Part shown: one piece after another, positions 36,719-44,871 of the stretch
Numbering within the stretch: the stretch's first letter is position 1
Layout of the letters: each line of letters opens with the position of its first letter
Source: a bacterium
Lineage (GTDB): Bacteria > Bdellovibrionota > Bacteriovoracia > Bacteriovoracales > Bacteriovoracaceae
DNA length: 53,767 nucleotides
NCBI GenBank assembly: GCA_030425045.1
Contig: JAUHVL010000023.1
Coordinates: 1 to 53,767 of the forward strand
Direction of reading: 5' to 3'
The notes under the pieces: generated by a model
Told to the model about the DNA's origin: nothing
Database searches by the model: none
Seen by the model: the letters and a program-made list of their open reading frames with translations, nothing else
Translations under genes and position numbers: made by a program

Positions 36719-37543
36719 ATGAAGAAGTTAAACCTATTATTACTGTTTTTATTATTATTTACAGTTTCATGTGCCACGAATAAAAGTTCTGATCGTGGAC
36801 CTGCTGCAAGTAATGATGTTGCCATTGAAAGAGTCGCTGAAGCCTGTGATATCGATGAAGATTTTCTTGGTGACCTCGTCGATAATAATGCTGTTCCAGA
36901 TGAAGCACGTTATCTTTCCGGAGGAGGAGGTTTTCAAACTTTTCTGATGAAAGATGGAAGACTTGTTATTGTTTCTGGAGTGAGAAAAAATTCAAGTAAC
37001 AAATGTAAAATAGATCACCTAAAAATTGATGAAGGTGAGATTACGTCGACATTTGCTAATGGTAGAAGGTTATTTATGGCCGTAAGAAATACAAGAGGAA
37101 GTGGACGAGTCTATGTTATGACTGCCGTTAAAGATCAGGATGCTCGTGACCCTTATCAAGTGCACGAAATAAAGTATGATCACAGACGTTTTGCCAATGC
37201 TTCAAGCTTTGAAAGAAGAACCATCAAAGTAGGAAGTAAGAACAAATACGGTGTGGCTGTCATTCATCGCGATGGTCATGCTTATAATAGAGAGCTGAAG
37301 CCGTGGGAGTGGGGTGATAATAACGAGTATATTACTTCAAAAGAACACGCCGTAAAAATTGATTTAATTCCAGTTAGGCCAAGTCAGCGTGTCGTAAGAA
37401 TTGAGAGACCGAGAGTTGAGACGAGAAGACCTACGGTTACTTACTTACCAAAGCCACCAAAGACATGTAGAGCTGAAGAAAAGATTAGTTTTTTCTTTGG
37501 ACTATTCTCCATTTCAAATAGTGTAGAAGTACCTTGTTCATAA
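36719..37543 (+). CDS. Lipoprotein of unknown function
   Basis: A lipoprotein signal (LLLFLLLFTVSC, Cys19) is followed by about 255 residues without known motifs. The centre has beta-rich stretches such as RLFMAVRNTRGSGRVYVMTA. The C-terminus is basic and Pro-rich and then carries a Cys pair (TCRAEEKISFFFG and VPCS) that could form a disulfide. AAAGGAG lies before the ATG. A 6-bp inverted repeat (TATGTT/AACATA) sits at 36669-36686 in its leader. A strong bidirectional terminator follows. Confidence 0.75.
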   Translation: MKKLNLLLLFLLLFTVSCATNKSSDRGPAASNDVAIERVAEACDIDEDFLGDLVDNNAVPDEARYLSGGGGFQTFLMKDGRLVIVSGVRKNSSNKCKIDHLKIDEGEITSTFANGRRLFMAVRNTRGSGRVYVMTAVKDQDARDPYQVHEIKYDHRRFANASSFERRTIKVGSKNKYGVAVIHRDGHAYNRELKPWEWGDNNEYITSKEHAVKIDLIPVRPSQRVVRIERPRVETRRPTVTYLPKPPKTCRAEEKISFFFGLFSISNSVEVPCS

Positions 37544-38551: not shown

Positions 38552-39358
38552 ATGCGTTTTCTATTAGTTTTATTGATCATTTCACTAGAGGTTAAGGCCA
38601 TCACGGTTACCAGTTTAAACCTACAATGGTTTGGTAGAGGCGGAATTATAGAAGGCACCGTGAGTGATGAGTTTAGAGGAAAACGGATAAAAGACTTCCT
38701 TTATAATGAGTTACCAAAAAGTGATGTTTATGTTTTTCAAGAAGTCACAGCTCCAGAGTTAATCAAGAAGACTTTTGATGATCTTGCTTGTGAAAGTTAT
38801 TTCAACGAAATTGAAAGACATCAGCATGTGGTAACATGCCATCAAAAAGAAATCACCAGTGACCATGAAGCAAACTTTCAGGTTAAGTTAGGGAATCCTC
38901 AAATGCGAGCAGCAATGATTTCTAATCTTGTTTTAAAAAATAATAAGAAAGTAAAAGTTATTGGCCTTCATCTAAAAGCAGGAAGTGAAAAAACTAATTT
39001 TAGAAAACAGCAGTTAATAAAACTAGAAGAAGATATTTTTGAAAATAGACCAATGATTATCATTGGTGATTTCAATGCCTATCCCAAAGATAGAACATTA
39101 TTAGAGCAAGATGATGAAGTTATATTTAATGAAGTATTGGCACCATTTGGTTTTGTTAAGTCTCCCATCGATTATAAAACGTTTTTGTGGAGAGAAAAAA
39201 GGGTTTTTGATTTAGCTTGGTATAAAAATCTTGTCCTTAAAAAAGCCGCTGTGTATGGGCCTTGTCGTTTGGATAGTGTTAGTTATCCTTATAGTAGTCA
39301 TGATTTTTATAGAAGATTTGTTTCAGATCATTGTGCTATTCAAGTATCGTTTGAATGA
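38552..39358 (+). CDS. Exported endonuclease/exonuclease/phosphatase family protein
   Basis: This metal-dependent phosphodiesterase has the EEP fold, shared by DNase I, exonuclease III and sphingomyelinases. A short signal peptide precedes ITVTSLNLQWFG. The catalytic series is Asn in SLNLQW, Glu in VFQEVTAPE, His-Leu-Lys in GLHLKAGS, GDFNAYPKD, and SDHCAI at the C-terminus. All active residues are present. Export suggests degradation of extracellular or prey nucleic acid or lipid, an inference from the fold. GAAGGAG precedes the ATG. The LysR gene is divergent. Confidence 0.87.
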   Translation: MRFLLVLLIISLEVKAITVTSLNLQWFGRGGIIEGTVSDEFRGKRIKDFLYNELPKSDVYVFQEVTAPELIKKTFDDLACESYFNEIERHQHVVTCHQKEITSDHEANFQVKLGNPQMRAAMISNLVLKNNKKVKVIGLHLKAGSEKTNFRKQQLIKLEEDIFENRPMIIIGDFNAYPKDRTLLEQDDEVIFNEVLAPFGFVKSPIDYKTFLWREKRVFDLAWYKNLVLKKAAVYGPCRLDSVSYPYSSHDFYRRFVSDHCAIQVSFE

Positions 39359-40125
39359 CCAAGGATTTGCTTTTTCAAAAGACCGAATCTTTTAAAAAAA
39401 GTAATACCCATCTCAAGAGGAAGTTCACCCACTAGATTAAAAAGATCGTCATCTGAAATAGAGACGATCTTTTCTTTTATTATTTCAAGTTCAGGCATAT
39501 TAAGGGATTCGATAACATAATTGGGGATTCTAAGATCATCTTCTTCAGCAAGTCTTGAAATAAAACTAAAACCATGATCGATAAGAAAGAGATTTAGTTC
39601 GGGGTCAATTAAAATATTACCAGGATGGCGGTCATACTCGGCCAAGAGGTAATCAAAAACGATATTTTTATGGTAATCCTCATCACTTATTGTAAGCTCA
39701 GCAAGATAGCCATCTTTTGCCCTTTCAATAAAAAGCTGAAGAGAACCAACTTCGCCAAAAACATTTCGTTCTACCGTAGGGGGAACCAAGTCAAACCCAA
39801 ACGTATCAGAAATTTCATAGGCAGCAATTTCTGCTAAATATTCAGTATTTCTATCTTGTTTTTCTGGTTTAAATACGGCCCTTGTTCCATCTTGAAGTGT
39901 AACGAGATAAACAGAATTATCACCAGCAACAATTCTTCTGATATCACCTTCAATGGGCATTTCTTTTAATTTTTTAACAATGCTTACTGAAGAGCCAAGT
40001 AAGCGATCTAAATTTGAAAGACAATCATGAGAAATTGTAGATGAAAGAGAGCGGGAGTTTTGATAATTGAGGTGGCCACAACCGCACAATAAAAAAATAA
40101 ATAGTAAGAATAGCTTTATGTTCAC
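39340..40125 (-). CDS. Lipoprotein with a kinase-like (PI3/4K, Fam20C-like) domain
   Basis: The 261-residue protein carries a lipobox (LCGC, Cys16). A predicted kinase fold follows: Lys86 in TRAVFKPE (nucleotide), Glu99 in EYLAEIAAYEIS, VPPTV, then EYDRHPGNILID with Asp165 and Asn170, and the metal Asp183 in LFLIDHGFSF. This combination resembles PI3/4-kinase-like and Fam20C-like proteins. The lipobox places it outside the inner membrane, where ATP is scarce, so its donor and target are open. It overlaps the convergent phosphodiesterase gene by 19 bp. Confidence 0.72.
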   Translation of the reverse strand: MNIKLFLLFIFLLCGCGHLNYQNSRSLSSTISHDCLSNLDRLLGSSVSIVKKLKEMPIEGDIRRIVAGDNSVYLVTLQDGTRAVFKPEKQDRNTEYLAEIAAYEISDTFGFDLVPPTVERNVFGEVGSLQLFIERAKDGYLAELTISDEDYHKNIVFDYLLAEYDRHPGNILIDPELNLFLIDHGFSFISRLAEEDDLRIPNYVIESLNMPELEIIKEKIVSISDDDLFNLVGELPLEMGITFFKRFGLLKKQILGHSNDT

Positions 40126-42144: not shown

Positions 42145-44871
42145 GTGAAGTTTTTAAGATTTTTTAAATGTATATTTTTCAGTTATTTGCTGTTTATCGT
42201 GCAGTTAAATGTTTCACTTATTCCCTTCAAACAAGGAATACCTCATAAGACTTTTGTGAAAGTTAATCTTACCCACGAAGGTGTTTATGCTCAGGCAGAT
42301 TCCATGACAAGTATGGCGAAGTCTGAAAGTAATGACTTCAAAAGACATTATCTCCCGATGATTGTCATGCTTGGTATTGGAACAATGTCCTTTTTTATTT
42401 TTAAAAATTTAGAGAGGCGAAGTGCCGACATGATTATTTTTCTCATTGGGGGAATAATTTACTTTGCCAATGTCGTGATGGGATGGACTGAGGAAAATAA
42501 AGCATTTGAGAAATTACCTGATGAAATTCAAATAGATTCTCAAGTGGATGCTTTAGAGCTTCAGAAGAAGTCTTTTGAAGATGTTCTTGCTATTGCCGAG
42601 AAGAGATACAAAATGCAAATGGCAGCAACGGCCACATTTGCAGCAGCATCAATTGCTGCCATGATGGCCTATATGAAAGAAAGGTCAAATACGACTCAAG
42701 CACAATCTCGGATAGCAGGAAGTATTTCCGATGCACAGGGGGCTTGTGCAAGGGATTCTCAAGTTGCTTCAGGGCAGTGGTTAATGGCCGAAAATAGAGA
42801 ACCGTTAATGTCAAATTGTCAAAGGCAAACCACTGAGATTGCTAATGGATTAAATCAGGTACAGGGAGATGTTGCACAAGTAGCTGCACTCAATGAAAGA
42901 GTTGCTGATCCAAGAGGATCGGATAATGCTAACACATTATTAGAACAAGCGAATGATAGACTCGCAGAACATGCTGCAAGAGTTGATCATCCAGTAGATG
43001 TGAACCTTCATCGTCGATTGCAAATGGCATCTCTTCGAGGAATAACCTATGAAAATCAAGTCATAAAAAAAGATCCTATATACTTTGAGGATTTTAAAAC
43101 GGGGGTCATTTATAAAATGATCCCTAGAACTTTACATCGAGAAAATGATCGTAATGTGAGTTATGTTGAAAAATACCTGACAGATGAAGAACTCAAAGAC
43201 TTTTCTAAAGAAGATATTGATTTTTTAAATTTCTTAAAGATGGATATCAATTTAATTGATACCTTGATTGCTAAGTCATATGCAGGGCTAGGAAGCTGGT
43301 TTGGTTTTGGAAGTACAACAGCTGAAGCTGCTATAGATACTGCATCTGATGCTATTGGTAATGAAATTGGAAACGCTACAAGTATGGACCTGAGTAACTT
43401 TAACTGTAGCGACAATTCAAGCTCTGGCTTATGTCAAGGGACGAGTACTGAAAATAATCGTAATCAAGCTTATGTTCAACTTGCTGGTGGTATACAAAGT
43501 GAGGTACAGGGAGCGATGGCGGAAAGAGCTGTCGGGTCTTTAGCAAGTGCGACTGCTCAAACTAGTGGCTGGCGTGCGTTCGGAAGATTTGTAGCTGCCA
43601 GAGCTGCAACTGTACTCGTTGTTGCAGCAGGGGGCTTAGCTGCATCAGCTACTGCTCCCATTGCAATTTCAGTTGCTGGCTTAGCTCTTACAGCAATGAG
43701 TGCTTATGAACTTGCGATGCTGGGAGTCGCAGCCTATGAAGCTTACTCTAAAAACTCCATGGCACAAGAGCAACTTGAAAACACTGTAGATGATATGGGA
43801 GATTTTGGAGCTAATATCACATTGTTTTATAAAAAGTCGTTTTTAGATTATTTTCTCCCTAGGGCTTATGCTTTTTCTGGATTAGATGTTGCCAATAATG
43901 GAAGAAGTGCGTTAGCAGAGTCAACAGGTGAGGGAATGAGAGAAGTCGATCGATTTATTTTCAATCCCAAGGGAAGAATGATTGTATATGGTGCTGTCAC
44001 AGCTTTATCCGGAGTCATTATGGCCAGTACGAAATCTATGATTGAAAACCTGAAAGGCGACATCGAGCAAATAGATGGAATTATAGAAGGGATGAACGAC
44101 AACCAAGTTAATAATAGTCGTTACTTATATAAAAGTATTAACCATATTTTGAATTACTTAACCAATGATGCAGTTGCATCTAAATTGAAAACAGTAGATA
44201 TCGGAACAAAACTTCCTTGTATACAGCCAATTAAAAACAGGAAAGACTCTTGTGCAAATTTAAAGCTTTTACATCGTAGGTTTACTCCAAGCACATCATA
44301 TAAAAATCCTGAAATCTTAAATCAAGCGTTTAATACAATTACAGAAATTGGAAATGGTTTAAACGGACAAAGTAGAATAAGTAACGAAACAATGAGAAAA
44401 ATTGAGGTACTCGCAAGCGTTGCTCCTATTATGGTTGGAATTCAAGAAAATACAGAAAAAATAGTCAATAGAGAAAGAAGGAAAAGTGGAGATAAGCCTC
44501 TAAATTTCAAAGCTCTGCAAAATCTTTTTATGAATAGAATGTATAAAAGAACAGAGTATATTTTTAAAAAGCATAATGTTTCTGAAATTGATTTAGCTAA
44601 ATTAACCTCTGGCTCGTTGAAAAAAGCAAAAAGAACCCATGGGGAAAGAAAGCTTGTTCCTAACATAAAGAATAATGCTGAAGACGAAATATTAGAAAAT
44701 GAAAATTCTCATGACAGAGATATCGTTTTACATCATCAAAAAAGAGACGTTTCTAGTACTGGTGAGAGTTATCAGCTTGATGATATTAATAAAGATTCGA
44801 ACTTGGATATATTCAAGATTATTTCGCGAAGATATTTAATGATTAGAGATAAAAAAATAAAAGTCGAATAA
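42145..44871 (+). CDS. Large membrane protein of unknown function (908 residues)
   Basis: Translation starts at GTG with GGAG eight bases before. Residues about 7-27 form a signal-like segment and about 70-115 two membrane segments (LPMIVMLGIGTMSFFIF, MIIFLIGGIIYFANVVMGW). A helical, possibly coiled-coil part follows, then an Ala-rich segment near 160-180. A second hydrophobic cluster lies at about 490-535 (VLVVAAGGLAASATAPIAIS), and another membrane segment near 615. A long polar tail with many Lys/Asn completes it. No enzymatic motif is seen. It is monocistronic. A structural envelope or pole-associated role is possible but not supported by a motif. Confidence 0.72.
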   Translation: MKFLRFFKCIFFSYLLFIVQLNVSLIPFKQGIPHKTFVKVNLTHEGVYAQADSMTSMAKSESNDFKRHYLPMIVMLGIGTMSFFIFKNLERRSADMIIFLIGGIIYFANVVMGWTEENKAFEKLPDEIQIDSQVDALELQKKSFEDVLAIAEKRYKMQMAATATFAAASIAAMMAYMKERSNTTQAQSRIAGSISDAQGACARDSQVASGQWLMAENREPLMSNCQRQTTEIANGLNQVQGDVAQVAALNERVADPRGSDNANTLLEQANDRLAEHAARVDHPVDVNLHRRLQMASLRGITYENQVIKKDPIYFEDFKTGVIYKMIPRTLHRENDRNVSYVEKYLTDEELKDFSKEDIDFLNFLKMDINLIDTLIAKSYAGLGSWFGFGSTTAEAAIDTASDAIGNEIGNATSMDLSNFNCSDNSSSGLCQGTSTENNRNQAYVQLAGGIQSEVQGAMAERAVGSLASATAQTSGWRAFGRFVAARAATVLVVAAGGLAASATAPIAISVAGLALTAMSAYELAMLGVAAYEAYSKNSMAQEQLENTVDDMGDFGANITLFYKKSFLDYFLPRAYAFSGLDVANNGRSALAESTGEGMREVDRFIFNPKGRMIVYGAVTALSGVIMASTKSMIENLKGDIEQIDGIIEGMNDNQVNNSRYLYKSINHILNYLTNDAVASKLKTVDIGTKLPCIQPIKNRKDSCANLKLLHRRFTPSTSYKNPEILNQAFNTITEIGNGLNGQSRISNETMRKIEVLASVAPIMVGIQENTEKIVNRERRKSGDKPLNFKALQNLFMNRMYKRTEYIFKKHNVSEIDLAKLTSGSLKKAKRTHGERKLVPNIKNNAEDEILENENSHDRDIVLHHQKRDVSSTGESYQLDDINKDSNLDIFKIISRRYLMIRDKKIKVE

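Follow-up and report, generated by a model that had tools for sequence, protein, structure and literature searches.

Extracytoplasmic phosphorylation is established in animals, through the Fam20 kinases, and few bacterial cases are described beyond CotH and a set of injected effectors. Type II phosphatidylinositol 4-kinase (PI4KII) is eukaryotic and acts on the cytosolic face, where it is held by a palmitoylated CCPCC motif. Among bacterial kinases, Helicobacter CtkA is reported to act extracellularly, and LepB, LegA5, OpiA and Risk1 reach eukaryotic hosts through dedicated secretion systems and not by means of a Sec signal and a lipobox. The latter four are phosphatidylinositol (PI) kinases of the PF00454 type that are injected and leave the bacterial cytoplasm (PMC7298712), and CotH is a bacterial kinase-fold protein, distant kin of Fam20C, that acts on an outer structure, the spore coat (PMC7821199). 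We analyzed a stretch of 53,767 nucleotides (the window; contig JAUHVL010000023.1, assembly GCA_030425045.1, Bacteriovoracaceae, Bdellovibrionota) that carries one gene for a kinase-fold protein with a predicted export signal and lipobox (Table 1). Judged from its sequence and predicted structure, the gene product is probably a catalytically active member of the PI3/PI4-kinase superfamily that is exported by Sec, tethered to a membrane and working outside the cytoplasm.

The protein matched PF00454 (PI3_PI4_kinase) with E=1.2e-8 and 35.6 bits, above the Pfam cut-off of 27.1, and hallmark residues of that family are present: the adenosine triphosphate (ATP) lysine, the DRxxxN catalytic loop and the DxG metal site. 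Among 46 relatives, 37 matched the same model at E<=0.01. A sequence-only reading of the locus had named Lys86, Glu99, Asp165/Asn170 and Asp183 as catalytic residues; they were found at these positions, and in an alignment of 64 family domains they are kept in 59-63. The alignment with PI4KII-alpha covers the FKP lysine, the glutamate of helix C, the DR loop and IDNG/IDHG; with Fam20 it covers the same elements except Asn170. A profile of the 46 relative cores searched against the PDB gave Fam20A (3.7e-17) and PI4KII-alpha (3.9e-17). The earlier proposal of a PI3/4K- and Fam20-like kinase was thus upheld by a Pfam score above cut-off, aligned residues and a matching fold, and the same score, fold and residue conservation rule out a chance motif match. 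Of the profile families suggested by that reading, PI3_PI4_kinase was matched and the models of Fam20 and CotH were not: PF06702 (Fam20) did not match the window kinase at E<=10 although 9 of the 46 relatives matched at E<=0.01, and PF08757 (CotH) matched a single one of the 46 and not the window kinase.

The kinase fold is known to host activities of the AMPylation or glutamylation type, as in SelO and SidJ, and the scarcity of ATP outside the cytoplasm would suit a nucleotide-binding sensor. An exported kinase-fold domain with such other chemistry, or with a sensor role, is nevertheless unlikely here, since the full canonical kinase set is strongly conserved with no residue inverted or lost, unlike in the pseudokinase Fam20A (PMC5413348).

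Structure predictions supported a kinase. A first, full-length model (9 sequences) reached a predicted local distance difference test (pLDDT) of 80.7, with low confidence at residues 21-44, and a model of the core (46 sequences) reached 91.3 with a predicted template modelling score of 0.89. The best VIA-align match of the core model was PI4K type II, with Z 17.5 over 206 residues and a root-mean-square deviation of 3.4 A. The Z values for the full-length and core models were 17.9/17.5 for PI4KII, 15.8/15.1 for Fam20 and 13.8/14.5 for CtkA, followed by HipT/HipA (HipA-type kinases, 10-12 to the core model), and LepB was found in the search with the full-length model at Z 9.2. Foldseek ranked PI4KII first for the full-length model and Fam20 first for the core model. 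In these predictions the kinase fold as such is secure, and the placing between PI4KII and Fam20 is not. The sequence-only reading had asked whether Lys, Asp and Asn might lie scattered in the fold, and this was not seen; the one-for-one alignment with PI4KII-alpha together with a fold match of ~206 residues suggests that they meet in one pocket.

The N-terminus, MNIKLFLLFIFLLCGC, reads as a short signal peptide closed by a lipobox. As claimed earlier, it carries the lipobox LCGC: Cys16 follows L13-C14-G15 in the order expected of a bacterial lipoprotein, although Cys14 at position -2 is slightly atypical as compared to the usual [ASTVI], and relatives also carry export signals. Cys16 is probably lipidated, and the protein, as it has no Asp at +2, is probably located at the outer membrane. 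By inspection, the mature chain of about 19 of 29 short family members contains a single cysteine apart from the lipobox Cys, just past the signal peptide; the equivalent in the window kinase is Cys35, at 40021-40023(-). A lone conserved cysteine is odd in an exported protein, and a disulfide-linked dimer is a possibility.

No longer start can exist for this open reading frame because a stop codon lies three codons 5' of the GTG, and within codons 1-70 there are just two other in-frame starts, a TTG (codon 13) that falls in the hydrophobic stretch and an ATG (codon 56). If the latter were the real start, the protein would be a cytosolic kinase and the stretch upstream of it a product of chance. 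Met56 is in frame, starting there leaves the kinase core nearly whole, and at the GTG no strong ribosome-binding site is visible by eye. However, the open frame runs on up to the GTG, and the signal peptide and the cysteine at the Cys35 position, both N-terminal to Met56, are kept in relatives, which makes this start very improbable. An internal start that removes the lipobox, the second danger seen by the sequence-only reading, was therefore rejected.

Predicted export is the rule in the family. In a single-sequence search of 59 genomes, homologues were found in 8 other genera of the same family, and all 8 of these first relatives start with a signal peptide, by eye. By a uniform test (charged start, hydrophobic stretch, no later transmembrane segment) an export signal was present in 47 of 59 homologues, compared to 52 of 152 neighbouring genes (Fisher p 2e-9, and only a guide, as is the following p value, because related sequences are not independent). 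The excess is not built in by the profile, since it holds for 29 of the 37 homologues whose profile match excludes the signal-peptide columns (p 2e-6). Several homologues that fail the test, L008, L066 and L068 among them, nevertheless have a signal peptide that is visible by eye. The fold, a complete and conserved catalytic set, and an export signal here and in most relatives are thus shown by computation. Lipoboxes were found in the window kinase, in L096/L098/L099 and in L084/L085, which occupy three positions in a rapidly built tree, read without branch support, and are apparent in the Myxococcota relatives L110 and L112. In the window kinase and in L084, L085, L096, L098 and L099 the residue following the lipobox Cys is not Asp, which under the Lol rule of E. 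coli suggests an outer-membrane location. The earlier view that a lipid-anchored bacterial kinase would be unusual holds in part: the anchor is an exception within the family, but export itself is the rule and the gene is not a lone oddity.

With a profile, 78 of 369 genomes searched in the phylum (54 of 182 genera) proved to hold a relative. The relatives that carry names, by which the phylum was taken as Bdellovibrionota, belong to Bacteriovorax, to Halobacteriovorax and to further Bacteriovoracaceae or Bdellovibrionales; more distant ones come from Polyangia and one Oscillospiraceae. The source genome of 3.97 Mb holds a single copy and no paralogue. The kinase domain stands alone in the window protein, L002 and L003; it also occurs as a lipoprotein, it is C-terminal in proteins of 529-1464 residues with unrelated N-terminal regions (L041, L042, L044, L045), and 2-3 copies occur per protein in L043 and L089. 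One well-sequenced genus has members of 735-769 residues, such as L065, L069 and L072. As read from sequence, the family thus appears to include lipoproteins, secreted proteins and very large multidomain proteins, and since these varied chassis around one kinase mostly carry export signals, the exported location seems to matter to function. The proteins at L041:5464-9855(-) (1464 residues) and L042:2717-6235(+) (1173 residues) have several LYLLSEKQFNALPDGTVLYSIDGxRKIKGVDDI-like repeats, without a Pfam match, ahead of the kinase. The 1639-residue open reading frame at L043:4529-9445(-) contains a tandem pair of units, in each of which an HExxH-like region precedes a kinase domain; a signal peptide was not found in this frame, the true start of which was not examined. 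The exported-looking protein at L089:2949-7934(+) (1662 residues) has three consecutive kinase domains. Directly upstream of the multidomain kinase gene a family of ~150-residue proteins was observed (L044:6422-6880(-), L045:24-455(+), L048:3043-3540(-)), with a signal peptide visible in two, which could be a partner of that kinase. Relatives also occur on viral contigs (L113-L123, IMG/VR), some of which, such as L114 and L123, have two consecutive kinase genes. No signal peptide was seen by eye in the viral relatives, so export is not general to the kinase class. PHROG family 3162, of unknown function, matches 36 of the 46 family members, and PADLOC gave weak matches that probably stem from the shared kinase fold.

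If the window gene encodes an exported kinase, Sec would carry it across the inner membrane, Cys16 would be lipidated and a flexible linker of ~40 residues would tether the core to the outer membrane, from where the kinase could transfer phosphate from ATP to a hydroxyl of an extracytoplasmic substrate. Candidate substrates are envelope proteins, glycans or lipids, or those of prey under attack. The fold does not reveal the substrate class, since lipid is the substrate of PI4KII, protein that of Fam20C and xylose that of Fam20B. The ATP would have to come from outside, possibly from lysed cells or, during intraperiplasmic predation, from the prey. Several points weigh against this reading. Kinase activity and localisation are both predictions; ATP is scarce in the periplasm and medium, so that an external source must be assumed; at 15 residues the signal peptide is short and carries a single positive charge, and the lipobox -2 position is occupied by Cys; the distribution is patchy, with relatives absent from most genomes, those of the same family included, in the 369-genome profile search; and no conserved partner gene that would indicate a substrate was found in the neighbourhoods compared.

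A narrower view is that the family consists of predation effectors exported towards prey or another target cell, the window lipoprotein being the form that stays attached to the membrane and works on the envelope of the prey. The spread through Bdellovibrionota, the giant exported proteins with a C-terminal kinase and the fact that other PF00454 kinases are injected effectors (PMC7298712) are in line with this. On the other hand, presence is patchy even within the same family, a role on the own envelope is equally open, and both delivery and a predatory lifestyle of the source organism are assumed steps, and we therefore regard the effector role as possible but doubtful.

The neighbourhood of the kinase gene gave no clue to function. 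The same-strand gene upstream encodes a GNAT acetyltransferase, the downstream gene is convergent and the other neighbours are ordinary and include a glycosyltransferase. Beyond a few close relatives no gene family is common to the kinase neighbourhoods, and promoter and terminator scans at the locus gave nothing above chance, so operon context was dropped as a guide. The convergent gene, at 38552-39358(+), encodes an exported-looking protein of the EEP type (endonuclease/exonuclease/phosphatase), with a Pfam score just under cut-off, and its 3' end overlaps that of the kinase gene by 19 bases. Two further genes of the window are without a Pfam match: 42145-44871(+), 908 residues with an N-terminal hydrophobic stretch, and 36719-37543(+), a predicted lipoprotein (FTVSCATN) of 274 residues.

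Table 1. Features of the predicted exported kinase gene, in window coordinates.
Feature	Position	Strand	Basis
Kinase-fold lipoprotein gene, 261 aa	39340..40125	-	GTG start, stop included; predicted export and lipobox
Signal peptide, residues 1-15	40081..40125	-	Hydrophobic stretch with one Lys; signal peptide kept in relatives
Lipobox L13-C14-G15-C16, predicted lipidated Cys16, Gly at +2	40078..40089	-	Sequence motif
Linker, residues 17-57, including conserved Cys35	39955..40077	-	Low pLDDT at 21-44; Cys35 position conserved in short relatives
Kinase core, residues 58-256	39358..39954	-	Core model pLDDT 91; VIA-align Z 17.5 to PI4KII
Lys86 (FKP), ATP-binding lysine	39868..39870	-	Kept in 63/64; aligned with PI4KII-alpha and Fam20
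Glu99 (AEIAAY), helix-C glutamate	39829..39831	-	Kept in 60/64, Asp in 3 more; aligned with PI4KII-alpha and Fam20
Catalytic loop DRHPGN, Asp165 to Asn170	39616..39633	-	Asp165 60/64, Asn170 62/64; aligned with PI4KII-alpha
Asp183 of IDHG, metal-binding aspartate	39577..39579	-	Kept in 59/64; aligned with PI4KII-alpha and Fam20

Since many members of this largely predatory phylum carry exported-looking relatives, they may phosphorylate something beyond their own cytoplasm. We tentatively suggest, with the odds rather against it, that Bdellovibrionota, and perhaps Myxococcota, have an extracytoplasmic phosphorylation system built on a Sec-exported PI4KII/Fam20 branch, with lipoprotein, secreted and giant multidomain forms that act on prey or on the envelope of the predator itself; it would be the prokaryotic equivalent of the Fam20 kinases of the secretory pathway. 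Such a family would offer a testable enzyme class for modifying prey or the own surface. The ingredients are already known, namely PF00454 kinases, Fam20 secretory kinases, CotH and pathogen-injected PI kinases (PMC7298712, PMC7821199). No description of a Sec-exported, sometimes lipid-anchored kinase branch across Bdellovibrionota was found in the open-access literature, which is weak evidence of absence, and kinases go unmentioned in the main text of a comparative-genomics paper on these predators (PMC11656739).

Compared with the described systems, the window kinase is not a Fam20, PI4KII, SCO1664 or HipA protein proper, as features of each were looked for and not all found. PI4K type II is the best VIA-align match and shares the FKP lysine, the single helix-C glutamate, the DRxxxN loop and IDNG/IDHG, and the family follows PI4KII in Asn170 and in its single helix-C Glu; however, CCPCC is absent (there is no Cys after Cys35 and the core is cysteine-free) and the window kinase is exported by prediction. 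The closest NCBIfam model is the SCO1664 family (TIGR03843), matched by 45 of 46 relatives at E<=0.01, although for the window kinase an equivalog is ruled out by a score of 50.6 against a cut-off of 172.4. CtkA and HipA/HipT have the kinase fold in common with the window kinase but only 12-14% identity, and a HipA toxin was rejected, since no adjacent HipB-like antitoxin gene was found and the fold match is weaker. The predicted Sec signal and lipobox set the protein apart from the injected LepB, LegA5, OpiA and Risk1. With Fam20A/B/C it shares predicted action outside the cytosol, the second-best fold match (Z ~15) and the AEIAAF, VPPTV and DNG motifs, but Fam20 (DRHHYE) has Glu where the family has Asn170 (Asn in 45 of 46), so that the earlier Fam20C-like alternative stands for fold and affinity and not for the catalytic residues, which are PI4KII-like. 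In ceFam20 a second essential glutamate, Glu213, lies four residues before the helix-C Glu and is Gln in the pseudokinase Fam20A (PMC5413348); its equivalent is conserved in only 2 of 46 family members, yet the window kinase has Glu95 there. Bacterial sequences with equally good matches to PI4KII and Fam20 also bear on the origin of these two eukaryotic kinases.
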